A stretch of 64,000 nt of DNA from Alphaproteobacteria bacterium (GTDB lineage Bacteria > Pseudomonadota > Alphaproteobacteria > Caulobacterales > Maricaulaceae), in NCBI GenBank assembly GCA_024742735.1, contig JANSXV010000001.1:434001-498000 (forward strand), in the 5' to 3' direction. Position 1 is the stretch's first letter; each line of letters begins with the position of its first letter. The notes beneath the pieces are model-generated. The model saw only the letters and a program-made list of their open reading frames with translations. It did not search any database and was not told where the DNA came from. Below are positions 6,292 to 30,573 of the stretch, one piece after another. The position numbers and the translations under genes are program-made.

Positions 6292-7212
6292 TCAGTTCGT
6301 GTTTCCAGCCTCGCCTGCACGCTCTTCGCGAAGCCGGTCGATCTCCACTGCGAAGGCGCCGCCGAAGAACACGGCATAGCTCGTCCAGTACACCCACAGA
6401 AGGAAGACGATCAACGCGCCCAGCGGGCCATAGATCGTCGGGTTCACCACCGTGGACACGTAGAGCGTGAAGCCCTTCGATGCGCCCAGCCAGGCCAGCG
6501 TCGCGACGCCCGCCCCGGTCAGCGAGGCGCGCCAGCTGGTCTCGCCCGCGCGCTGCATGACATAGCGGTACAGAAGGCTCAAGGCGATCAGCATGGCGGT
6601 GAAGCTGGCGGTCCATTCATTGAACAGGCCGGCGGCGGCGTCAGCGGCCTCCGACCCGAAGAAGCGCAGCGCCGGCCGGACCAGGTTCGGGACGGTCAGC
6701 ACGACCAGATTGGCTGCGATCAGCAGCGAGCCGCCCGCCATGACCGCGCCCATGGCCAGGAGGTTGAAGTGCAGAATGTTGCGCAGATCTCCACGCCGGG
6801 CGATCTGGTTCAGCCCTGCGATGATGGCTTTCGCGCCGCGGGCTGAGGCGAACAGCGCGATCAGGCCGGCCACAGCGCCCTGAACCGTCAGCGAGATGTT
6901 CGATGTGCCGGCGAGCCCGGAGAGCTGGGTGTTCAGGAAATTGCTGGCCGCCGGCGGCAAGACGCCGGTCAATTCAAGGCGGGTGACCTGATTAAGGGCG
7001 TCGTCGGTGGAGAAGATCAGGCCATAGACCGCGATCCCGACGAGCACGGCCGGAAACAGCGCCAACAGGCCGAAAAACCCCGCCCCACCGGCGAACAGCA
7101 TCACCTCGCGCGCCATCATGCGGTCGACCGTGCGCACGAACACCCTGACGACAGGATTTCGCCCGATCGCAGCGAATATGGATTTCAGGACGGGCAGGTA
7201 TCGGCGCGGCAT
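6292..7212 (-). CDS. YihY/BrkB family inner-membrane protein
   Basis: A 306-residue multi-spanning membrane protein of the YihY/virulence factor BrkB family. The N-terminal amphipathic stretch is followed by about six hydrophobic helices, with the family's ALFPAVLVGIAVYGLIF segment (about residues 50-68) and the C-terminal GPLGALIVFLLWVYWTSYAVFFGGAFAVEI signature. Its biochemical function is not established; the name 'ribonuclease BN' attached to older entries is a misassignment. It sits alone on the minus strand upstream of scoA with an ordinary gap, and there is no strong ribosome-binding site before the ATG chosen here. Confidence 0.88.
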   Translation of the reverse strand: MPRRYLPVLKSIFAAIGRNPVVRVFVRTVDRMMAREVMLFAGGAGFFGLLALFPAVLVGIAVYGLIFSTDDALNQVTRLELTGVLPPAASNFLNTQLSGLAGTSNISLTVQGAVAGLIALFASARGAKAIIAGLNQIARRGDLRNILHFNLLAMGAVMAGGSLLIAANLVVLTVPNLVRPALRFFGSEAADAAAGLFNEWTASFTAMLIALSLLYRYVMQRAGETSWRASLTGAGVATLAWLGASKGFTLYVSTVVNPTIYGPLGALIVFLLWVYWTSYAVFFGGAFAVEIDRLREERAGEAGNTN

Positions 7213-21113: not shown

Positions 21114-21142
21114 TGATCCGAGATCTCTTGTATCGCGTAATA
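21114..21142 (+). promoter_or_regulatory. RpoE/ChrR-type sigma promoter of the photolyase-CFA operon
   Basis: TGATCC (21114-21119), an 18-base spacer, then TAATA (21138-21142). The known promoter consensus of the singlet-oxygen sigma factor RpoE of Rhodobacter sphaeroides is about TGATCC-N18-TAAGA. It is placed about 70 bases before the photolyase ATG. An equivalent promoter drives the chrR operon at the other end of the cluster. Confidence 0.75.
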
Positions 21143-21210
21143 ATCCATGACCGATCTTCGGTCACGCCTTACGCTGCGCCTGCATCGCCATTGAGATTCA
21201 AAGCCATTTC

Positions 21211-22647
21211 ATGACTGACGCTCCCGCCCTTGTATGGTTCCGCAACGATCTGCGCCTTTCTGACAACCCCGCCCTCCTCGCCGCCGCCGCATCCGGCCGT
21301 GGGCTGATCGCGGTCTATGTGCTCGACGACGAGAACGCCGGCGAGTGGGCCATGGGCGGCGCGAGCCGCTGGTGGCTGCACCATTCCCTTGAGAGTTTGG
21401 CGCGCGACATTGAAGCACTGGGTGGGGCGCTGACACTGCGCCGGGGCGACGCCGCGACGCTTATTCCGGAGTTGGTCGAAGAGACCGGGGCGGCATCTGT
21501 GTACTGGAACCGGGCCTACGAGCCCTGGGCGATCACCCGCGACAAGCAGATCAAATCCGCGCTGACCGAAGCCGGCGTGGAGGCGCGCTCGTTTAACGGC
21601 GCGCTGATCGTCGAGCCCTGGGAGATCAGCACCAAGCAGGGCAAGCCCTACAAGGTCTTCACGCCCTTCTGGCGCGCCCTGAAGGCCGATCATGCGCCCG
21701 CAGAGCCGGCTGGACGCCCTGACACGGTGCGATTCGCCAAGGCGCCTGTATCTGACCGGATCAAGGACTGGGTGCTCTTGCCGAAAAGGCCGGATTGGGC
21801 GGGCGGCCTGCGTGATGCCTGGACGCCGGGTGAACCCGGCGCACACGGACGTCTGGGGGGCTTCATCCAGCATCGCATGGCCGATTATGACAGCGCCCGG
21901 AACATCCCCGGGATCAGCGGAACGTCCGGGCTGTCGCCCCACCTCCATTTCGGTGAGATCTCACCACGCCAGGTCTGGCACGCCGTACGCAACGCCGACG
22001 GCGGCTTAAGCGAAGACGCCGACAGCTTTCTCAGCGAAATCGGCTGGCGGGAGTTCAGCTATAATCTTCTTTTCCATTTCCCTGACCTGCCCGACCAGAA
22101 TTTCCAGCCCAGGTTCGACGCCTTCGACTGGACCGGGACCGACGAGCACTTCAGAGCCTGGACCAGGGGCCTTACCGGCTATCCCATCGTCGACGCGGGG
22201 ATGCGCGAACTGTGGGCCACCGGCTGGATGCATAATCGGGTACGCATGATCGTGGGCAGCTTCCTCATCAAGGACCTGATGATCCACTGGCGCCGCGGCG
22301 AGGCCTGGTTCTGGGACACGCTCGTGGACGCAGATCTCGCCAGCAATGCGGCTGGCTGGCAGTGGGTCGCGGGATCCGGCGCGGACGCCGCGCCCTACTT
22401 TCGCATCTTCAATCCAGTCAGCCAGAGTGAAAAATTCGATCCGAACGGCGATTATGTGCGTAAATGGGTTCCAGAGCTTAAGGGGTTGCCGAAGAAGGCT
22501 ATTCACGCCCCCTGGACGGCGGACCGGGAGACCCTGTCGAGGGCCGGTGTCGTTCTGGGGCGGAATTATCCCCGGCCTATCGTCGACCATGGCGAAGCGC
22601 GCAAGCGCGCTCTCGCCGCATTTGAGAAGATCAAGGACGCTGCATGA
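21211..22647 (+). CDS. phrB: Deoxyribodipyrimidine photo-lyase (class I CPD photolyase)
   Basis: A 478-residue cryptochrome/photolyase protein that repairs cyclobutane pyrimidine dimers with light. It has the N-terminal alpha/beta antenna domain (LVWFRNDLRLSDNPALLAAAA) and the FAD-binding C-terminal domain with GLSPHLHFGEISPRQVW, FLSEIGWREFSYNLLFHFP, GYPIVDAGMRELWATGWMHNRVRMIVGSFLIKDL and WFWDTLVDADLASNAAGWQWVAGSG, all classic class I features. First gene of a four-gene operon with overlapping coding ends, under an RpoE-type promoter; photolyase is also in the R. sphaeroides RpoE regulon. Confidence 0.96.
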   Translation: MTDAPALVWFRNDLRLSDNPALLAAAASGRGLIAVYVLDDENAGEWAMGGASRWWLHHSLESLARDIEALGGALTLRRGDAATLIPELVEETGAASVYWNRAYEPWAITRDKQIKSALTEAGVEARSFNGALIVEPWEISTKQGKPYKVFTPFWRALKADHAPAEPAGRPDTVRFAKAPVSDRIKDWVLLPKRPDWAGGLRDAWTPGEPGAHGRLGGFIQHRMADYDSARNIPGISGTSGLSPHLHFGEISPRQVWHAVRNADGGLSEDADSFLSEIGWREFSYNLLFHFPDLPDQNFQPRFDAFDWTGTDEHFRAWTRGLTGYPIVDAGMRELWATGWMHNRVRMIVGSFLIKDLMIHWRRGEAWFWDTLVDADLASNAAGWQWVAGSGADAAPYFRIFNPVSQSEKFDPNGDYVRKWVPELKGLPKKAIHAPWTADRETLSRAGVVLGRNYPRPIVDHGEARKRALAAFEKIKDAA

Positions 22648-24011
22648 GCGATATCGAGCCCATCCTCACCCGCCGGTCGAAAATCGCCGTCATCGGCGCC
22701 GGCGTCAGCGGACTGGGCGCCGCCTGGGCGCTGCGGGACGTCCATGACGTCACGCTGTTTGAAAAGCGCGATCGTCTGGGAGGCCACGCCAACACCGTCA
22801 CGATCGACTATGACGGACGGGCCATCGACGTCGACACCGGCTTCATCGTCTTCAACACGCTGAACTACCCCAATCTGACAGCTCTGTTCGAGCATCTGGG
22901 CGTCGCTCATTTCGGCTCAGACATGAGTTTCGGGTTCTCGCTGGACAAGTCGCTGGAGTGGTCGTCGAACGGGCTGTCCGGGCTGCTGGCCGATCCGATG
23001 AACCTCGCACGCCCGACCTTCCTGCGCATGGTTCGCGACATCCTCCGGTTCAATGACCGGGCCCAGAAGGACCTGGCCTCAGGCTCGCTGTTCGGCCTTT
23101 CGCTGGGCCAGTATCTCGATCAGCTCTCGATGAGCGCCCAGTTCCGGCACAACTACCTTCTGCCCATGGGCGCCGCGATCTGGTCGTCCACCGAGGCCGA
23201 GATGGAAGCCTACCCGGCCGAGGCGTTCGTTCGCTTCTTCAACAATCACCGCCTGATGCACGTCTCCCGGCCCAAATGGGGCACGGTCAAGGGCGGCAGC
23301 CGGGTCTATGTCCAGAAGATCAGGGCGGATCTTGAGGCGGCCGGCGCAACGTTCGGGCCGGGGGTCGAGACTGTCCGCCGCCTGCCGGACGGCGTGATCG
23401 TCACCGATGCCGAGGGTCAGGACCATCGCTTCGACGAGGTCATTCTGGCCTGTCACTCAGATCAGGCGCTGAAAATGCTGGCCGATGCGGACCCGGAGGA
23501 GCGCGACATGCTCGCCGCGATCCCTTACGCGCCGAACGAAGCCGTGCTTCATCGCGACCAGACGCTCGTGCCGCGCCGCCGCAACGCCCGCGCCGCCTGG
23601 TCCTATCTGCGCGAAGCCGGACATCCGGGTGCGGCGGTGACCTACGACATGAACCGTCTGCAGAACATACCCGCCGACAAGCCGCTCTTCGTCACGCTGA
23701 ACCCTGCCCGCGAACCTGATCCGGCGCTGACATTCGGGCGCTATCAGTACGACCATCCCCAGTTCACCGCGCCGGGCATGGCGGCCCAGCGGATTTTCAA
23801 CCGGATCCAGGGGGTGCGCCGCACCTGGTTCGCAGGGGCCTGGCTCGGCTACGGCTTCCACGAAGACGGTCTTCGGGCGGGGCTGCGCGCAGCCCTGCGC
23901 CTGGGCGGCCAGATCCCCTGGGCCTTTGCGGAAGGGGACATCTCTGGCGGCCCCTGGGCGGAGCGCGCCGGCGCCGGGCGCCCTTCAGGACAGGTCTCGG
24001 CCGCCGAATGA
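22644..24011 (+). CDS. FAD-dependent amine-oxidase-fold oxidoreductase
   Basis: A 455-residue flavoprotein with an N-terminal dinucleotide-binding motif (IAVIGAGVSGLGAAWALR, about 12-29), the LGGHANTVTIDYDGRAIDVDTGFIVFN signature of this COG2907-like group and a C-terminal FAD-contacting GAWLGYGFHEDGLRAG. The start overlaps the photolyase stop (ATGA) and the stop overlaps the DUF1365 start. In alphaproteobacteria and others this protein occurs with DUF1365 and cyclopropane-synthase-like methyltransferases, pointing to fatty-acyl chain modification in membrane lipids. The exact reaction is not readable from sequence. Confidence 0.88.
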   Translation: MSDIEPILTRRSKIAVIGAGVSGLGAAWALRDVHDVTLFEKRDRLGGHANTVTIDYDGRAIDVDTGFIVFNTLNYPNLTALFEHLGVAHFGSDMSFGFSLDKSLEWSSNGLSGLLADPMNLARPTFLRMVRDILRFNDRAQKDLASGSLFGLSLGQYLDQLSMSAQFRHNYLLPMGAAIWSSTEAEMEAYPAEAFVRFFNNHRLMHVSRPKWGTVKGGSRVYVQKIRADLEAAGATFGPGVETVRRLPDGVIVTDAEGQDHRFDEVILACHSDQALKMLADADPEERDMLAAIPYAPNEAVLHRDQTLVPRRRNARAAWSYLREAGHPGAAVTYDMNRLQNIPADKPLFVTLNPAREPDPALTFGRYQYDHPQFTAPGMAAQRIFNRIQGVRRTWFAGAWLGYGFHEDGLRAGLRAALRLGGQIPWAFAEGDISGGPWAERAGAGRPSGQVSAAE

Positions 24012-24808
24012 CCGCCGCAGCAGAGCTCTACATCGGACGCACAGTCCATGAGCGGCGCATGCCGTTCTCACACCGGTTCAGCTATCGCATCGCCTCGCTG
24101 ATGGTGGACCTGGATCGCTTGACCGAGGCGGCTGGACAGAGCCGGCTGTTCTCGATCAACCGGCTTAATCTTTACAGCTTTTTTGAACGAGACCACGGCC
24201 CGCGCGACGGCGGATCGCTGAAGGCGTGGGCGCACGAGCGCTTCGCCGAAGCCGGCGTCGCAGTGGACAATGCGCGCATCCGCCTCCTGTGCGCGCCGCG
24301 CGTGCTGAACTATGTGTTCAACCCGCTCTCCATCTATTTCGCCGAAGACTACGACGATGGCCGTCTGCGCGGCGTCATCTACCAGGTGCACAACACGTTC
24401 GGTGACGACCACGCCTATGTCGCGCCGTGTGAAGGCGGAGGGGCCGAGCGGCAGAGTGTGGACAAGCGGTTTCATGTGTCGCCCTTTTTCGACATCGGCG
24501 GGCGTTACGAATTCACGCTGCGCCAGCCTGACGACCAGTTCCGCCTGACGATCTTCAAGCAGCGCGAGGCCGGTCCCGACTTCATGGCCACCATGGCGAT
24601 GAAGCGCGAGGCCCTCACTACGGGCGCCCTCGTCCGCCTCGCCGCGACCCAGCCTCTGTCCACCCTGAAGACGATCTCCGCGATCCATTTCGAGGCCCTG
24701 CGTCTCTGGATCAAAGGTGCGAAATATCACAGTCGTCCCGCCCCGCCGGCGGACGCGACGACGGCCCGGCTGGGCCATGACGAGCCCGCCCAGCTTGGTG
24801 ACAACTGA
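24008..24808 (+). CDS. DUF1365 family protein
   Basis: A 266-residue DUF1365 protein. Typical segments are the N-terminal GRTVHERRMPFSHRFSYRI, LLCAPRVLNYVFNPLSIYF, VYQVHNTFGD-like and DKRFHVSPFFDIGGRYEF. The family has no assigned activity but is almost always found between a COG2907 FAD oxidoreductase and a CFA-type methyltransferase, as here. It probably acts with them on membrane fatty acids. Its start overlaps the preceding stop by 4 bases. Confidence 0.9.
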   Translation: MTAAAELYIGRTVHERRMPFSHRFSYRIASLMVDLDRLTEAAGQSRLFSINRLNLYSFFERDHGPRDGGSLKAWAHERFAEAGVAVDNARIRLLCAPRVLNYVFNPLSIYFAEDYDDGRLRGVIYQVHNTFGDDHAYVAPCEGGGAERQSVDKRFHVSPFFDIGGRYEFTLRQPDDQFRLTIFKQREAGPDFMATMAMKREALTTGALVRLAATQPLSTLKTISAIHFEALRLWIKGAKYHSRPAPPADATTARLGHDEPAQLGDN

Positions 24809-24851
24809 CTTTGCGTTTATCTTCAAGCGCGGAAACGCGACGGAGCCCGAG

Positions 24852-26093
24852 ATGACTTACGCCGCTGAAGACTTCACGATTCCCGCCGACCCGCGCGCGA
24901 TCGACCGCCTGGACGGCATACCGCGCGGCGGCCGGTTCGCGCTGAAAATGCTCCTGAAAATGAAGGAAGGTTCGCTGGACGTCGTGCTGCCCGACGGGCG
25001 CAAGATCAGTTTTCAGGGCGAGTATCCCGGCCCTTCAGCAGAGATCCGGCTCGCCAATTTCGCCGTCATCCGCCGCGCTCTGGCCGGCGGAGATGTGGGC
25101 TTTGCGGAAAGCTATATGGATGGTGACTGGTCGACGCCTGATCTGCCGGCGGTGCTGACGGTCTTCTCCGCCAATCTTGACCGGATGTCCGGCATCGTCG
25201 CGGGCGGCCCGGTGACCCGTTTCTTCCACTGGCTCTACCACCGCCTTCGCGCCAACACGAAAGCAGGTGCGCGCAAGAATATCGAAGCCCACTACGATCT
25301 GGGCAATGATTTCTACGAGCTCTGGCTCGACCCCTCCATGACCTACTCCTCGGCGAAGTTCGCCAGCCCGGACCAAGAGCTGGAGGACGCTCAGCGTGAG
25401 AAATATGCGGCGTTGGCCCGCTCCATTGATCTGAAGGCGGATGAAAGCGTGCTTGAGATCGGCTGCGGCTGGGGCGGGTTCGCCGAATACGCCGCAAAAG
25501 AGATCGGCGCGAACGTGACCTGCCTGACGCTCTCGCCCTCGCAGCGGGACTATGCGCTGGAGCGCATGCAGGCGCACCAGCTGTCCGAAAAGGTCGAGAT
25601 CAAGCTTCAGGATTACCGCGATGAGACCGGGCGCTACGACAAGGTGGCCTCCATCGAGATGTTCGAAGCTGTCGGCCAGGAATACTGGCCCAGCTTCTTC
25701 TCCAAAGTGGCTGAAGTCCTGAAGCCCGGCGGACGGGCCGGACTTCAGATCATTACGATCCGGGACGATCTGTTCGAGACCTATTCCAAACGGGCCGACT
25801 TCATTCAGCGCTACATCTTCCCTGGGGGCGTCCTGCCCAGCGTCGAACGTCTGGAAGAGCAGTTCTCGAGCGCCGGCCTGAAGTTCGATGGGATGGACGC
25901 GTTCGGCCTGGACTATGCGGAAACGCTGAACCGCTGGCTGCATCGCTTCGGCGACGCCTGGAACGAAATCCGGCCCATGGGCTTTGACGACCGGTTCAAG
26001 CGCATGTGGGATTTCTACCTCGCCTATTGCGAGGCGGGCTTCCGCACAGGGCGCATCGACGTGGCGCAGTTCGCTGTCAGCCGCGAAGCCTGA
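24852..26093 (+). CDS. Cyclopropane-fatty-acyl-phospholipid synthase family methyltransferase
   Basis: A 413-residue SAM-dependent methyltransferase of the CFA synthase family. It has HYDLGNDFYELWLDPSMTYS, the SAM-binding VLEIGCGWGGFAEYAA (about 200-215) and ASIEMFEAVGQEYWPSFF. At the position of E. coli Cfa Cys139 (YSC) this enzyme has Ser167 (MTYSSAKF), so it may be a variant methylase rather than a standard cyclopropane maker. I use the ATG at 24852 with GGAG upstream; the frame is open to 24717, overlapping DUF1365. Last gene of the RpoE-type operon; convergent with an SDR gene. Confidence 0.88.
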   Translation: MTYAAEDFTIPADPRAIDRLDGIPRGGRFALKMLLKMKEGSLDVVLPDGRKISFQGEYPGPSAEIRLANFAVIRRALAGGDVGFAESYMDGDWSTPDLPAVLTVFSANLDRMSGIVAGGPVTRFFHWLYHRLRANTKAGARKNIEAHYDLGNDFYELWLDPSMTYSSAKFASPDQELEDAQREKYAALARSIDLKADESVLEIGCGWGGFAEYAAKEIGANVTCLTLSPSQRDYALERMQAHQLSEKVEIKLQDYRDETGRYDKVASIEMFEAVGQEYWPSFFSKVAEVLKPGGRAGLQIITIRDDLFETYSKRADFIQRYIFPGGVLPSVERLEEQFSSAGLKFDGMDAFGLDYAETLNRWLHRFGDAWNEIRPMGFDDRFKRMWDFYLAYCEAGFRTGRIDVAQFAVSREA

Positions 26094-26109
26094 CCGGCGA
26101 CCGTCGCGA

Positions 26110-26907
26110 TCACGACGGCGGCTTGTTCCAACCGGTCTGCTTGCGCACCAGATTGATGTGCCAGTCGCGCGGCAGGGCGTAGATCGCTTTGAGCATCCAG
26201 GTGAAACGGCGTGGAAAGGTGATTTCGAAGCGCTTTGATTTCAGTCCGGACACGATACGGCCTGCGGCCGTGTCGGCGCTGACCATGAACGGCTTGGGAA
26301 ATTCATTATCGTCCTGGGCCGGCGTTTCGACAAAGCCCGGCGTGATCGCCTGAACCAGAACACCGTAGCGGTGAAGCTCGATCCGGTAGCATTCGGCCAT
26401 GTTCACAAGCGCCGCCTTGCTCGCGCCATAGGCCGAAGCGGTCGGCATCCCGCCGAACGCCGTCGCCGAGGATACGATGGCGATCTGCCCTGCTCCGCGC
26501 TCGACCATAAGCGGCGTGATGGCGCACAGACACGCCGCCGTGCCGTTGAGATTGACGGCGAACGTCTTCGCGTAGTCCTCGAAATCCGGATTGGCGGCGT
26601 CGATGGAGAGATAGATGCCGGCGTTCAGGATCGCGCGCGCGATCGGGCCTTGCTCGGCTTCAATCCGGGCGACCGCCTGCCTGACCGCATCGGGATCCGA
26701 AATGTCTGCAGGCGCGGCGAAGACCTGGCCCGGGAGAGCCGCCTCGAGCGCCTTGAGCTTGTCTTCGGAACGCGCGGTGACGGCGACCCGCCAGCCCTGC
26801 CGGACAAGGCGCTCGACCAGTTTTTCACCGATTCCGGAGCTTGCGCCCGTGACCCAGCACAGCCCGTCCGAGGGTTTCGCAGGCGATGGGTTGAAGGGCC
26901 CGGTCAT
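26110..26907 (-). CDS. Short-chain dehydrogenase/reductase (SDR)
   Basis: A 265-residue classical SDR with the cofactor motif VTGASSGIGEKL (about 19-30), ILNAGIYL, the catalytic Ser in IVSSATAFGG and the YGASK active-site motif (YxxxK). The C-terminal region resembles SDRs of lipid or fatty-acid metabolism, with a KxxRFEITFPRRFTWMLKAIYALP-type tail. The start overlaps the FeS photolyase stop by 4 bases, and it is the last gene of the chrR operon. Oxidation or reduction of a lipid-derived carbonyl is a plausible role, from context only. Confidence 0.88.
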   Translation of the reverse strand: MTGPFNPSPAKPSDGLCWVTGASSGIGEKLVERLVRQGWRVAVTARSEDKLKALEAALPGQVFAAPADISDPDAVRQAVARIEAEQGPIARAILNAGIYLSIDAANPDFEDYAKTFAVNLNGTAACLCAITPLMVERGAGQIAIVSSATAFGGMPTASAYGASKAALVNMAECYRIELHRYGVLVQAITPGFVETPAQDDNEFPKPFMVSADTAAGRIVSGLKSKRFEITFPRRFTWMLKAIYALPRDWHINLVRKQTGWNKPPS

Positions 26908-28448
26908 GCGCTTTTCCTTTCCGCTTCAAGTCCGATGCGCTTGAAGAAGCGCCGGGAATCTTCGCGCACCGCGTGGCGCTTGTCATCGCCCATGCGGTCC
27001 AGCGTCTTGTAGATCATGCCCAGGCGATGATTGCCCCGGAGTTCGTCCTCATTCTCGATCAGGAAGTTCCAGTACAGGTAGTTGAACGGGCAGGCCTCCG
27101 GTCCGTTCTTCTTTGTGACATGATAGCGGCAGGACTTGCAGCTATCGCTCATCTTGTTGATGTAGGCCCCTGACGCCGCATAAGGTTTCGTCGCCATGAG
27201 TCCGCCGTCTGCATAGAGCGCCATGCCATGGGTGTTCGGCGCCTCCACCCATTCATAGGCGTCGGCGTAGACCAGCAGGTACCACTCGTTGACCGCTGCG
27301 GGATCGATGCCGGCGAGCAGGGCGAAATTGCCCGTCACCATGAGGCGCTGGATGTGATGGGCGTAGGCGTGGCGCTTGGTCGTGAGGATCGCATCGCGCA
27401 GGCACGCCATCTCGGTTTCGCCTGTCCAGTAAAATTCCGGAAGCGGTCGCTGGGCGTTCAGCGCATTGCGCTCCAGATAGTCCGGCATGAAGCACCAGTA
27501 GATGCCGCGCACGAACTCGCGCCATCCAAGGATCTGGCGGATGAAACCCTCGACCGCGTTCAGCGGCGCAACACCGTCGTAATAGGCCTTCTCCGCGCGT
27601 TTGCAGACCGTCAGGGGATCAAGGAGGCCGGCGTTGAGATATAGAGAGAGCACCGAGTGGAACAGAAAGGCCTCCCCCTGCTTCATGGCGTCCTGATAGG
27701 CGCCGAAATCGGGAAGGGCCTCTGTGATGAACCAGTCGAGCTGGGCTTCTGCGTCCTCAGCCGTCACCGCGAACCAGAAGTCCTCCAGATCTCCAAAATG
27801 GTCGGAGAAGCGCTGGGCGACCTGATTGATAACCGTGCGGGTGATGTCGTCGGGCTCGACGCGGTGGCGTTCGGGGATCGTGATATCTGGCGGCAGGCGC
27901 TCACGATTGTCGTGGTCGAAATTCCACTGTCCGCCTTCAGGCTGATCGCCATCCATCAAGATGCCGGTTTCGCGCCGCAGCTCGCGATAGAAGTATTCCA
28001 TGGTCAGCCGCTTCTTGCCCTCGGCCCAGGTGTTGAAGCGATCCAGCGGCGCGATGAAGCGATCGTCACGACGAATGTCCACCGGCACGCCGAAGTGTTC
28101 CGACCACCCGCGCATCGCCTCGCGAAGACGATGTTCGCCTGGCTCGACGACCACGACCTTATCGAACCCTCCGCCCTGAAGGGCGCGCTCGACCTCTCCA
28201 GCCAGCGAGCCGGCGTTGGCGTCGTCATCAATGCGGGTGTAGCGCACCGACATCTGCCGGGATTCAAGCTCCGCCGCGAAATGGCGCATGGCGGAGAACA
28301 GAAAGGCGATCTTCTTCTTGTGGTGCTTCACATAGGTCGCTTCTTCGCCGACCTCGGCCATCAGCACGACATCACCCGCCTCATAGTCCCGCAGCGAAGC
28401 CAGAGACGCAGACAGCTGGTCGCCAAGCACCAGGCGGAGCGTCGCCAT
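26904..28448 (-). CDS. FeS-BCP type (6-4) photolyase/cryptochrome (PhrB/CryB family)
   Basis: A 514-residue protein of the iron-sulfur bacterial cryptochrome and photolyase class, which repairs (6-4) photoproducts in Agrobacterium PhrB. It starts RLVLGDQLSASLASL and carries the FAD-domain motifs GWREFVRGIYW and HHIQRLMVTGNFALLAGI. Cysteines at 349, 437, 440 and 453 (TEMACL, SDSCKSCRYH, GPEACPFNYLYW) have exactly the spacing of the four [4Fe-4S] ligands of PhrB. It is thus a second, mechanistically distinct photolyase in this cluster. Overlaps the DUF6134 gene stop by one base; CryB belongs to the RpoE regulon in Rhodobacter. Confidence 0.93.
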   Translation of the reverse strand: MATLRLVLGDQLSASLASLRDYEAGDVVLMAEVGEEATYVKHHKKKIAFLFSAMRHFAAELESRQMSVRYTRIDDDANAGSLAGEVERALQGGGFDKVVVVEPGEHRLREAMRGWSEHFGVPVDIRRDDRFIAPLDRFNTWAEGKKRLTMEYFYRELRRETGILMDGDQPEGGQWNFDHDNRERLPPDITIPERHRVEPDDITRTVINQVAQRFSDHFGDLEDFWFAVTAEDAEAQLDWFITEALPDFGAYQDAMKQGEAFLFHSVLSLYLNAGLLDPLTVCKRAEKAYYDGVAPLNAVEGFIRQILGWREFVRGIYWCFMPDYLERNALNAQRPLPEFYWTGETEMACLRDAILTTKRHAYAHHIQRLMVTGNFALLAGIDPAAVNEWYLLVYADAYEWVEAPNTHGMALYADGGLMATKPYAASGAYINKMSDSCKSCRYHVTKKNGPEACPFNYLYWNFLIENEDELRGNHRLGMIYKTLDRMGDDKRHAVREDSRRFFKRIGLEAERKSA

Positions 28449-29131
28449 CAGCCCGTGACCGGGTCGGCGCGCCGGACATAGCGAATGGTCTGGCCGCGCG
28501 CCTCGAACTCACAGCCGGCCCAGCGGCCGTTGGCGTCGTAGTACAGATCGACGACCAGCGAGCTCGACAGGCGGATATGGCGGACCTCGATCATGCCGCC
28601 ATCGCCTTCAATCTCGGTCATTCCGAGATCCTCCACCACTGTCTCCATGACCGTGCCATGCTCGGTGTTGAGCATCTGGGTCATCTCGGGCGGGTAGCCA
28701 TGCCAGTGTGAGGAGGACAGGATTTCCGGCTGAAGGGTCAGCGAGACCGGGTTCTCGTCCGGGTCTTCGCCATTAACGCGGATCTCGCCATCCTCCAGGC
28801 GGGCTGAAACCTGGTAGGTGTTTCCGTCCTTCAAAGTCTCCGACTCAAGGCTCAGCAGGCGCCAATCGCGCCAGCGCTCGACCGCGTCATGCTCATACCG
28901 GAAAGCCGTGATGGGACCGAAACCGGCGCGCAGTCGAATCGTGGAGCGGGCGATGATGTCGCCACCATCCCGTTCAAAGCGCACCGCGTGGGAGCCGAAC
29001 TCGATATCGCCCTTTCGGTAGACGTCAAACACGATCTCCTCGCCTGCCGCAGGCTCGGGATAGCCATCAGCGAAAGCAAGCGGGGCGGCGGCGAGCAAAG
29101 CCCCGATCAGGGCGAAAGCGCGAAACAGCAT
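28448..29131 (-). CDS. Secreted DUF6134 family protein
   Basis: A 227-residue protein with an N-terminal signal peptide (MLFRAFALIGALLAAAPLAFA, cut near residue 21). The mature part is a beta-rich domain beginning with GEEIVFDVYRKGDIEFGSH and continuing through IRLRAGFGPITAFRYEHDAVERWRDWRLLSL, typical of DUF6134, which resembles DUF3108-type periplasmic lipid-handling beta-barrels. Function unknown. It is located inside the chrR operon between an SDR and the FeS photolyase and so is probably part of the same stress response, perhaps in the envelope. Confidence 0.85.
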   Translation of the reverse strand: MLFRAFALIGALLAAAPLAFADGYPEPAAGEEIVFDVYRKGDIEFGSHAVRFERDGGDIIARSTIRLRAGFGPITAFRYEHDAVERWRDWRLLSLESETLKDGNTYQVSARLEDGEIRVNGEDPDENPVSLTLQPEILSSSHWHGYPPEMTQMLNTEHGTVMETVVEDLGMTEIEGDGGMIEVRHIRLSSSLVVDLYYDANGRWAGCEFEARGQTIRYVRRADPVTG

Positions 29132-29134
29132 GGA

Positions 29135-29857
29135 TTATCCTTTCGTGCGCACACGGGACCGGCCGCCATCGACCGGGAAGACCTGGCCGGTGATCCAGCC
29201 AGCCTCATCAGACAACAGGAAGGCGGCAAGCGCCGCAGCGTCGTCAGCTTTGCCCAGGCGCTCCAGGGCATGCATCTTGGCCAGGCCGTCGCGCATCTTG
29301 TCATTGGACAGAAGCGGCTGGGCGATGCCGGTGTCGAGAAGGCTGGGCGCGACGGCGTTGATGCGCGCCTTGGGCGCCCATTCTGCAGCAACCGCCCGCG
29401 TCAGGCCTTCCACAGCGCCCTTCGCCATGGAGATCGCTGCGTGGCTGACAAAGCCCTGCCCCACCGCAACGGTCGAGAACAGCACCGCCGACCCGTCATT
29501 CTTCTTCAAGTGAGGCTCCGCCAGGCGCAGCGCCTCGGCGGCGGAAACGGCATTGAGCTCGATGCTCTCGCGCGCCATGTCGCGTGTCATGCGGCGCAGC
29601 GGCGCCAGGTCGATCGAGCCGGCCGCGAATGCGAGCCCGGCCAGATCACCGTCGTCCGCGGCGGCTTCGACGGCGGCCTCGATCTGGTCGCTGTCCAGAA
29701 CGTCGCATGCCTTGAACGGAGCATCGAGCTCCTTGGCCAGGGCGCCTAATGCATCCTCATCGCGTCCGGCGAGGAAGACCTTGCCTCCGCGCGCATTCAG
29801 CTTGCGTGCGAGCGCTGAACCAACACCGCCCGTCGCTCCGAAAATCAATGTCGTCAT
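29135..29857 (-). CDS. SDR-fold protein lacking the catalytic tyrosine
   Basis: A 240-residue Rossmann-fold SDR with a clear cofactor motif (LIFGATGGVGSALA, residues 4-17) and the C-terminal INAVAPSLLDTGIA and DEAGWITGQVFPVDGG motifs. At the active site Ser128 is present (FSTVAVG) but the YxxxK motif reads ISMAK (142-146), so Tyr is replaced by Ile while Lys is kept. Activity may be altered or lost. I use the ATG at 29857, preceded by GAGGTGG; the frame is open to 29968 without support. Second gene of the chrR operon. Confidence 0.85.
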   Translation of the reverse strand: MTTLIFGATGGVGSALARKLNARGGKVFLAGRDEDALGALAKELDAPFKACDVLDSDQIEAAVEAAADDGDLAGLAFAAGSIDLAPLRRMTRDMARESIELNAVSAAEALRLAEPHLKKNDGSAVLFSTVAVGQGFVSHAAISMAKGAVEGLTRAVAAEWAPKARINAVAPSLLDTGIAQPLLSNDKMRDGLAKMHALERLGKADDAAALAAFLLSDEAGWITGQVFPVDGGRSRVRTKG

Positions 29858-29877
29858 GACCACCTCGTGGTCTGCTG

Positions 29878-30537
29878 TCAGAAAAGGCGGCCCAGCACTC
29901 GGTCGGCCAGGGCCAGAATGGGGTTGGTCGGCTTTAACTGCCCGAACTCGACGACCAGGCAGAGGCACGCCTCCTCCCCATCAACGACCGGCCGGTGCAT
30001 ATGCCCGGACGCGGCATGGCAAACCTCGCCGGGGCCATAGCGGCCAACCTCATCGCGGAACGCCCCGGACATAACCAGCGTGAGCTCGTCGCCCCCGTGA
30101 GCGTGTTCCGGCGCCCGCCACCCGACTGGAAGCTTCAGAAGGCGGACGTGCACGCCCGGCTCGCAGAGCGAGTGGATGACATATTCTTCCATACCGCCGA
30201 AACGGCGGTCCCAGACGATCGGCTCTCCATCGGAAAGAATGCGCTCAAGGGCCCTGGGAAAGACGCTTGATTGTGTGACCGCCTCGCCTGCGGCGGCTGT
30301 TTCGAAGCCGCCGAGTTCGGCCACCGTCCGCGTGTAGAGGTCTATGCTGACCGGAGCGACCGGACCACATTCAAGCAAAGCGCCGAACGCTGTCTCGGCG
30401 GCGCTGAGCCGGCCGGCGGCGTCGTCGTTCAGCTCCGCCTGACAGGCGGCCAGAACGCGCACGGCGACCGGCGCCGCCCCTGAAGCGGCGTCCAGTACAA
30501 GGCCCTCATCGAGCAGGGTGTTTAGTTTGTGTGTCAT
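29878..30537 (-). CDS. chrR: ChrR-like cupin protein (RpoE anti-sigma factor family)
   Basis: A 219-residue protein (from the ATG at 30537) with a short N-terminal anti-sigma-like region and a C-terminal cupin. Numbering from the GTG at 30540, the cupin zinc ligands of Rhodobacter ChrR are conserved: HxHGGDE (His146, His148, Glu152) and the His of HMHRP (His182). In the N-terminal zinc site (His-His-Cys-Cys in ChrR) only two ligands remain (His4, Cys33); the other two align with Val29 and Glu36. No ECF sigma gene lies next to it, unlike the usual rpoE-chrR pair. It heads a five-gene operon under an RpoE-type promoter that overlaps its start. Confidence 0.8.
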   Translation of the reverse strand: MTHKLNTLLDEGLVLDAASGAAPVAVRVLAACQAELNDDAAGRLSAAETAFGALLECGPVAPVSIDLYTRTVAELGGFETAAAGEAVTQSSVFPRALERILSDGEPIVWDRRFGGMEEYVIHSLCEPGVHVRLLKLPVGWRAPEHAHGGDELTLVMSGAFRDEVGRYGPGEVCHAASGHMHRPVVDGEEACLCLVVEFGQLKPTNPILALADRVLGRLF

Positions 30538-30544
30538 CACTCAG

Positions 30545-30573
30545 TTCTACGTGCCGCCAAGCTAGACGGATCA
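30545..30573 (-). promoter_or_regulatory. RpoE/ChrR-type sigma promoter of the chrR operon
   Basis: On the minus strand TGATCC (30573-30568), an 18-base spacer and TAGAA (30549-30545). Spacing and -35 are identical to the promoter at 21114-21142. Initiation 6-7 bases past the -10 would fall at 30540-30537, on the start codon itself, predicting a leaderless mRNA. Confidence 0.75.

Follow-up and report, generated by a model that had tools for sequence, protein, structure and literature searches.

How does a singlet-oxygen regulon operate when a relative of its anti-sigma factor is encoded among the target genes and the sigma factor is encoded somewhere else? The question arises from a 64,000-nucleotide stretch of a draft genome of the Maricaulaceae (Alphaproteobacteria), hereafter the window, in which two operons converge, with their promoters at the outer ends, and in which one of their nine genes, chrR2, encodes an orphan ChrR-like protein. 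A first-pass annotation of this DNA had described operons with divergent ends bounded by matching promoters; the matched promoters stood, but the orientation had to be corrected. The locus is the core of a regulon of the sigmaE type, sigmaE being an extracytoplasmic function (ECF) sigma factor of the ECF11 type: phrA and ufaD-ufaO-ufaM converge on chrR2, two short-chain dehydrogenase (SDR) genes, a DUF6134 gene and a second photolyase gene. We consider it probable that this is the core of a singlet-oxygen and organic-peroxide regulon in which ChrR2 serves as an induced brake on sigmaE.

The sigmaE promoter of Rhodobacter sphaeroides has a TGATCC form, and the two promoters had been recognized by the pattern TGATCC-N18-TANNA. 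This pattern was found exactly where it had been placed, at 21114-21142 on the forward strand and 30545-30573 on the reverse strand, and these are its sole two matches in the window (0.05 expected; two matches in 0 of 100 dinucleotide shuffles). A whole-genome scan with spacers of N17-19 gave 20 matches, seven of them with N18, so the pattern alone is unspecific across the genome and conservation is needed to decide. The tighter form TGATCC-N16-CGTA gave 8 matches in the window genome and 94 over 12 genomes, with 0 and 7 matches, respectively, for a reversed-pattern control.

Conservation was assessed in relatives. A search of 119 family genomes for window-type ChrR homologues gave 64 with a match, and stretches were fetched around the best 29 matches in other genomes (27 of the window's ChrR type and 2 of the other type), with 11 further loci fetched for the second ChrR; two ChrR matches were present in 14 of the 15 same-genus genomes listed. 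Upstream of chrR2, the site was present in every locus, window included, 30-53 bases ahead of the aligned start (28 of 28 loci; 27 exact, with L093 reading TGATCT, one mismatch). Upstream of phrA, an exact site was found in 18 of 20 testable loci, a tally that omits L072, where the start lies outside the fetched sequence (the site of this locus was afterwards observed in L148), and L070, where phrA itself does. Shuffled upstream regions came within 0-1 mismatch of the site in <1% of cases, and the consensus of 45 exact sites was TGATCCR-N15-CGTA, a purine always following TGATCC. Both promoter-like sites are thus confirmed as real, and the RpoE-type promoter that had been claimed for each operon is borne out by its conservation. 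Between window positions 30573 and 30537, the CGTA of the chrR2 site ends only 7 nucleotides 5′ of the GTG at 30540, with a similar distance in close relatives, so the chrR2 mRNA is probably leaderless or nearly so.

No rpoE gene is present beside the window's chrR. A ChrR family search of the genome returned two genes, the window's (77.8 bits, below the cut-off) and one at C19:130296-130949 (131.5 bits, above it). The latter, chrR1, follows an ECF sigma gene (L035:7588-8169) whose product has R. sphaeroides RpoE as its closest solved relative (2q1z_A, E 3.7e-40; this comparison was made for this ECF product alone), and the rpoE-chrR1 pair is accompanied by an ialB-like gene. In the 34-contig draft, rpoE lies on contig C19 and chrR2 on C30. 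The claim of a regulon gathered in one place therefore failed, since a different contig carries rpoE together with the chrR next to it and additional conserved sites occur at other places. A 63-row tree puts the ChrR1 and ChrR2 types in clades of their own; the trees are weakly supported at depth and place neither ChrR2 nor ChrR1 as the older copy.

The rpoE gene itself appears to be outside the control of this promoter. In the window genus and g15, the site was found upstream of rpoE in 0 of 12 loci, where the best match had 3-4 mismatches, the same as in shuffles; rpoE autoregulation through a degenerate site is ruled out for the window genus on this ground. In 11 of 12 loci the rpoE-chrR1 spacer (L035, 8170-8278) carries TTGA-N19-ATAT, which occurs in 0.3% of shuffles. 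This element resembles an RpoH-type promoter, and it is possibly one that serves chrR1 alone. If so, and if rpoH is itself a sigmaE target, chrR1 would provide a second, delayed brake.

The first-pass annotation had taken the window's ChrR for an ordinary one. It is instead an orphan paralogue that scores 78.3 bits against TIGR02451 (77.8 in the genome search above), where the cut-off is 124.5 and ChrR1 passes (131.5, 135.1). When aligned to R. sphaeroides ChrR, ChrR2 lacks the anti-sigma zinc cysteines C35 and C38 in 28 of 28 loci and keeps H31 in 7; the cupin zinc ligands H141, H143, E147 and H177 and the C187/C189 pair are kept in all 28. ChrR1 of the genus and g15 is also altered, with H31, C35 and C38 missing in 12 of 12 and one histidine left, a residue away from H6; its cupin ligands are kept. 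Of the outgroup loci compared, L098 has the full motif and L097 has the histidines without the cysteines. An AlphaFold2 single-chain model of ChrR2 (predicted local distance difference test score, pLDDT, 86.8) had R. sphaeroides ChrR chains as its best structural matches (2q1z; TM-score by target 0.80, root-mean-square deviation 4.7), with the four-helix N-terminal domain kept and confidently modelled. The ChrR1 model was poor (pLDDT 62.7) and was not used. We conclude that ChrR2 is a ChrR homologue and orphan paralogue and not a member of the zinc anti-sigma family. That a ChrR could function at all in zinc-free form is made plausible by the example of ChrR1, by the shared fold and by RseA, in which, as a review describes, a similar helical bundle is maintained zinc-free (PMC6852236).

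The explanation we favour would work as follows. Photo-oxidative stress would release sigmaE, encoded with ChrR1 on another contig, and sigmaE would transcribe both converging operons from the TGATCC-N16-CGTA promoters. From the first would come PhrA together with UfaD-UfaO-UfaM, predicted to methylate, desaturate and oxidize membrane acyl chains into a furan fatty acid; from the second, ChrR2, the SDRs, the DUF6134 protein and the CryB-type photolyase. ChrR2, most likely with a ChrR-like fold, would bind sigmaE in trans as an induced brake. Because rpoE carries no sigmaE promoter, sigmaE would raise its own inhibitor but not itself, giving negative feedback where a coupled operon would be usual. 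The genes, the promoters and their conservation, the separate rpoE-chrR1 pair, the missing zinc cysteines and the site-less rpoE are read directly from the DNA; the inducing signal, the binding of sigmaE by ChrR2 and the dynamics we infer.

Several observations weigh against this explanation. Mean pairwise identity over the same 12 genomes is 47% for ChrR2, compared with 71% for ChrR1 and 76% for RpoE; with the copy beside rpoE far better conserved, ChrR2 may not be the main anti-sigma factor of the window organism. R. sphaeroides ChrR needs the zinc of its anti-sigma domain, by the account of the same review (PMC6852236), and two of the 20 testable phrA loci (L071 and L073) have no site.

The alternative that survives best, which we regard as unlikely, is that ChrR2 is no longer an anti-sigma factor and has become a cupin-based enzyme or sensor of lipid peroxidation products, a mere sigmaE target, with ChrR1 alone holding sigmaE. 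The loss of the zinc cysteines alongside retention of the cupin ligands and C187-C189 (each 28 of 28) is as this alternative would have it, as are the lower conservation of ChrR2 relative to ChrR1 and its score below the ChrR family cut-off. Against this, the four-helix N-terminal domain persists, and ChrR1 lacks the same cysteines beside rpoE in 12 of 12 loci, so that their loss need not end function in this lineage; moreover, where a genome has no ChrR match linked to rpoE, no ChrR candidate other than the orphan was found. A much less probable alternative is that another ECF sigma factor of the genome reads both operons and that the sigmaE-ChrR1 pair does something else. The genome does hold 12 sigma-region-4 matches (only part of them ECF), and its rpoE is itself without a site; however, rpoE-chrR has this site in front of it in Rhizobiales and in related genera, the content of the regulon is that reported for R. 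sphaeroides sigmaE (PMC7074977), and the next RpoE-like protein of the genome is only 35% identical to sigmaE, the product whose closest solved relative, in a comparison made for it alone, is 2q1z_A. The original proposal of a self-contained light and singlet-oxygen regulon with its regulator ChrR inside the cluster as usual, suggested by two matched promoters with chrR between them, has hardly any credence left, since the sigma gene, the better-scoring ChrR and the other conserved sites are all elsewhere and the enclosed ChrR is a divergent orphan.

Returning to ChrR2 as an induced brake, we compared the window with loci from other Alphaproteobacteria. In outgroup loci where rpoE-chrR diverges from ufaD-ufaO-ufaM, the site was present on both sides in 10 of 10. 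In one set of 20 loci that contributed to this count, the twelve others had neither the site nor ufa genes. The order of matches in L098, rpoE-chrR-SDR-SDR-cryB, is that of the window's chrR2 operon with a sigma gene in front. A set of named genomes comprised the best 80 of 197 confirmed stretches, 65 of them outside the ChrR2 group (L190-L204). Among these 65, 53 ChrR genes stood beside rpoE, 11 were orphan and one was cut by a contig end. All 11 orphan genes carried the site (L237 as TGATCT), and 8 lay within 500 bases of cysK. In five genomes (three Aliihoeflea, one Mesorhizobium and one Rhizobiaceae) nothing but the orphan matched ChrR, and a different contig held the best rpoE, with rlmN- and ialB-like neighbours recognized by eye.

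A class-wide draw of 212 alphaproteobacterial genomes gave 102 ChrR match rows (fragments counted apart), 82 linked to rpoE and 20 unlinked, and 12 rpoE genes without a ChrR within 900 bases. Nine of the 212 genomes combined such a lonely rpoE with an orphan as the sole ChrR found, and in a tenth split genome (G292) a lonely rpoE and an orphan ChrR occurred in addition to a linked pair. The lonely rpoE loci had ialB nearby in 9 cases and rlmN in 8, and the site, in strict or relaxed pattern, in 0 of 12; linked rpoE genes had it in 37 of 53 (strict) or 50 of 53 (relaxed). The 20 unlinked rows included the window itself and two contig-end fragments (G195, G157) that were left unfetched. Of the 17 unlinked loci fetched, 12 carried the site and 9 had cysK nearby; two were partial (L331, L332), one was a doubtful orphan (L330, which has ialB and rlmN as neighbours and in which no rpoE reached the cut-off), and one (L322) is the same locus as L239 and common to both orphan sets. 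Two loci from other families of the class (L320, L321) set phrA-ufaD-ufaO-ufaM against sdr1-DUF6134-chrR in the order of the window, and have cysK next. L320 has neither the site nor the zinc motif. Both are present in L321, so a split can occur with the zinc motif intact.

One reading of these data is that a split sigmaE/ChrR switch exists in several alphaproteobacterial lineages, in which a lone, site-less rpoE (rlmN-ialB-rpoE) has as its sole anti-sigma factor a sigmaE-driven orphan ChrR, often near cysK, and in which the inhibitor is zinc-free in many lineages. We put this forward tentatively, as a possibility to be taken seriously but not one we lean towards. Counting against the induced brake are two genomes (G339, G266) in which the lonely rpoE has no ChrR counterpart that we could find, 5 of the 17 fetched unlinked ChrR loci, which have no site, and those orphans that keep the zinc motif. 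Raw counts associate the orphan state with zinc loss (zinc motif present in 51 and absent in 2 linked genes; present in 2 and absent in 9 orphans; Fisher p 1e-7, truncated locus omitted), but a 55-row sample gave 19 with and 6 without among linked genes and 9 and 21 among orphans, and a pair test on the cupin-domain tree was uninformative. We therefore dropped the association as proof; once relatedness is allowed for, the correlation is not established. In the window's own family, a second zinc-less ChrR (ChrR1) stands beside rpoE. If the split reading is true, an autoregulated sigma/anti-sigma operon becomes pure negative feedback, singlet-oxygen sensing would reside in the cupin domain or in furan lipids and not in the zinc finger, and ECF factors thought to be without an anti-sigma factor, such as EcfQ, would gain their missing partner.

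All nine genes previously described were present, as judged by Pfam family matches (Table 1).

Table 1. Promoter-like sites and genes of the two converging operons (window coordinates; CFA, cyclopropane fatty acid; FAD, flavin adenine dinucleotide; SAM, S-adenosylmethionine)
Feature	Position	Strand	Basis or remark
SigmaE-type promoter of phrA-ufaDOM operon, TGATCC-N16-CGTA	21114..21139	+	Exact before phrA in 18/20 testable loci
phrA, DNA photolyase	21211..22647	+	PF00875/PF03441
ufaD-like FAD oxidoreductase, candidate fatty-acyl desaturase	22644..24011	+	PF01593/PF13450; label from family and gene order alone
ufaO-like DUF1365 protein, candidate furan-forming oxygenase	24008..24808	+	PF07103, 253 bits
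ufaM-like SAM methyltransferase, CFA/CMAS family	24852..26093	+	PF02353; under NCBIfam CFA-synthase cut-offs
sdr1, short-chain dehydrogenase 1, last gene of chrR2 operon	26110..26907	-	PF00106
cryB-like (DPRP/CryB-type) photolyase-related protein	26904..28448	-	PF04244
DUF6134 protein	28448..29131	-	PF19630
sdr2, short-chain dehydrogenase 2	29135..29857	-	PF13561
chrR2, orphan ChrR-like protein	29878..30540	-	Start GTG 30540 or ATG 30537
SigmaE-type promoter of chrR2 operon, TGATCC-N16-CGTA	30548..30573	-	Kept in 28/28 chrR2 loci

The first-pass annotation had not named the UfaD-UfaO-UfaM set. A methylated furan fatty acid is described as the product of UfaM, UfaD and the DUF1365 protein UfaO in R. 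sphaeroides, and RPA2571-2569 of R. palustris as a proven ufaD-ufaO-ufaM set (PMC7380195); the window has the three matching families in the same order. By family and order, its FAD oxidoreductase, DUF1365 protein and CFA-like enzyme would constitute this set, the UfaM label being given by CMAS family and gene order to a protein below the NCBIfam CFA cut-offs. Unlike the described pathway, the window set lies in one operon behind phrA, and its furan-lipid production is predicted from the genes. The three genes adjoin the chrR2 block in 22 of 28 loci. The six relatives with no ufaD-ufaO-ufaM beside chrR2 are L074-L077, L079 and L081, and in three of these phrA stands elsewhere with a sigmaE-type site of its own (L138, L141, L166). 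Furan fatty acids have been tied to ChrR turnover under singlet oxygen in the review cited above (PMC6852236). In the other operon, sdr2 adjoins chrR2 in only 4 of 28 loci (the window, L072, L078 and L096) and cryB was not found in L081 or L095, so the chrR2 operon varies towards its tail.

Other members of the regulon were sought behind the 94 TGATCC-N16-CGTA sites, of which 83 lay within fetched stretches (the 11 others, 10 of G088 and 1 of G044, were not fetched), with downstream genes called by a crude open-reading-frame caller. Genes found downstream in at least two genomes encoded fasciclin (8 genomes), an RpoH-type sigma factor (6) and phrA (4; three stand-alone and one, in L148, belonging to the cluster of G080 itself). 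A site preceded the gene for an AhpC/TSA-redoxin protein in 3 genomes, including the window genome, where it falls within the final part of the preceding gene, and the gene for a SOUL-like protein in 2, again including the window genome. A weak YceI match and two unnamed families (2 genomes each) were also behind sites. The fasciclin, redoxin and RpoH assignments are backed by Pfam and NCBIfam; SOUL gives a partial match that falls slightly short of its cut-off. Among the 8 sites of the window genome, a plausible target exists for the two window sites and for those of fasciclin, redoxin and SOUL, two sites are intragenic and one has no called gene downstream. Many single sites inside genes are probably due to chance. 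Upstream of the organism's own rpoH orthologue, which is 86% identical, TGAACC-N16-CGTA was read by eye; it differs from the site by one base. A BLUF blue-light photoreceptor gene (PF04940) lies directly 5′ of the fasciclin gene that has a sigmaE site (L037:7086-7493, 6421-6942; C26:41028-41056). SOUL-like (L133), fasciclin (L037) and CFA-family (window 24852-26093) genes all follow sigmaE-type sites, and in Chlamydomonas these three families are described among the singlet-oxygen genes that depend on SAK1 (PMC4067076).

The R. sphaeroides RpoE regulon, as given in PMC7074977, contains phrA, cfaS/ufaM, RSP_1090/1091, an SDR, rpoHII and fasciclin. Because phr, ufa, SDR, rpoHII and fasciclin genes recur in that list, the regulon found here is already of a known kind. 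The likeness to R. sphaeroides that had been proposed from the window holds for phrA, cfaS/ufaM and SDR and not for cryB, which is assigned there to the RpoHII regulon (PMC7074977). The sigma homologue and the targets phrA, ufaM, ufaD/ufaO (RSP_1091/1090), SDR, an rpoHII-type sigma factor and fasciclin are shared with the R. sphaeroides RpoE-ChrR system (PMC6852236, PMC7074977). In those accounts rpoE-chrR is an induced locus adjoining RSP_1087-1091 and ChrR has an HHCC zinc site, whereas in the window the promoter drives an operon with a zinc-less ChrR and no sigma gene, and rpoE-chrR1 stands elsewhere without a site. ChrR2 resembles the zinc-binding anti-sigma (ZAS) proteins ChrR, RsrA and RslA in its ChrR fold and cupin domain but differs in that their H-x24-H-x3-C-x2-C motif (PMC6432622) is absent from ChrR2 and broken in ChrR1. 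Bradyrhizobium japonicum EcfQ, an alphaproteobacterial ECF sigma factor inducible by reactive oxygen species, and other class 33 ECF sigma factors are reported to have no anti-sigma gene nearby (PMC3420878), as is the case for the lonely rpoE genes; section 9 of that account does not mention an orphan ChrR. Full-text literature searches returned nothing recognizable on orphan or zinc-less ChrR proteins, and the split, zinc-less ChrR variant appears to be new, whereas the regulon and its enzymes are already known.

Evidence on how ChrR senses singlet oxygen points in more than one direction: a model-peptide study implicates the anti-sigma zinc finger (PMC6432622), and the cupin domain and furan lipids are reported to be needed for the response in vivo (PMC6852236). 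Finger-less proteins in which cupin site, fold and promoter are all retained amount to natural experiments that bear on this question. With the split arrangement the feedback circuit is predicted to be a different one, and lonely ECF sigma factors gain a candidate partner. The two operons of the window probably serve to repair DNA damaged by light and to produce a membrane lipid with a protective role. Their ChrR-like brake, parted from its sigma partner and without the usual zinc site, suggests that a bacterial sigma/anti-sigma switch has been rewired.

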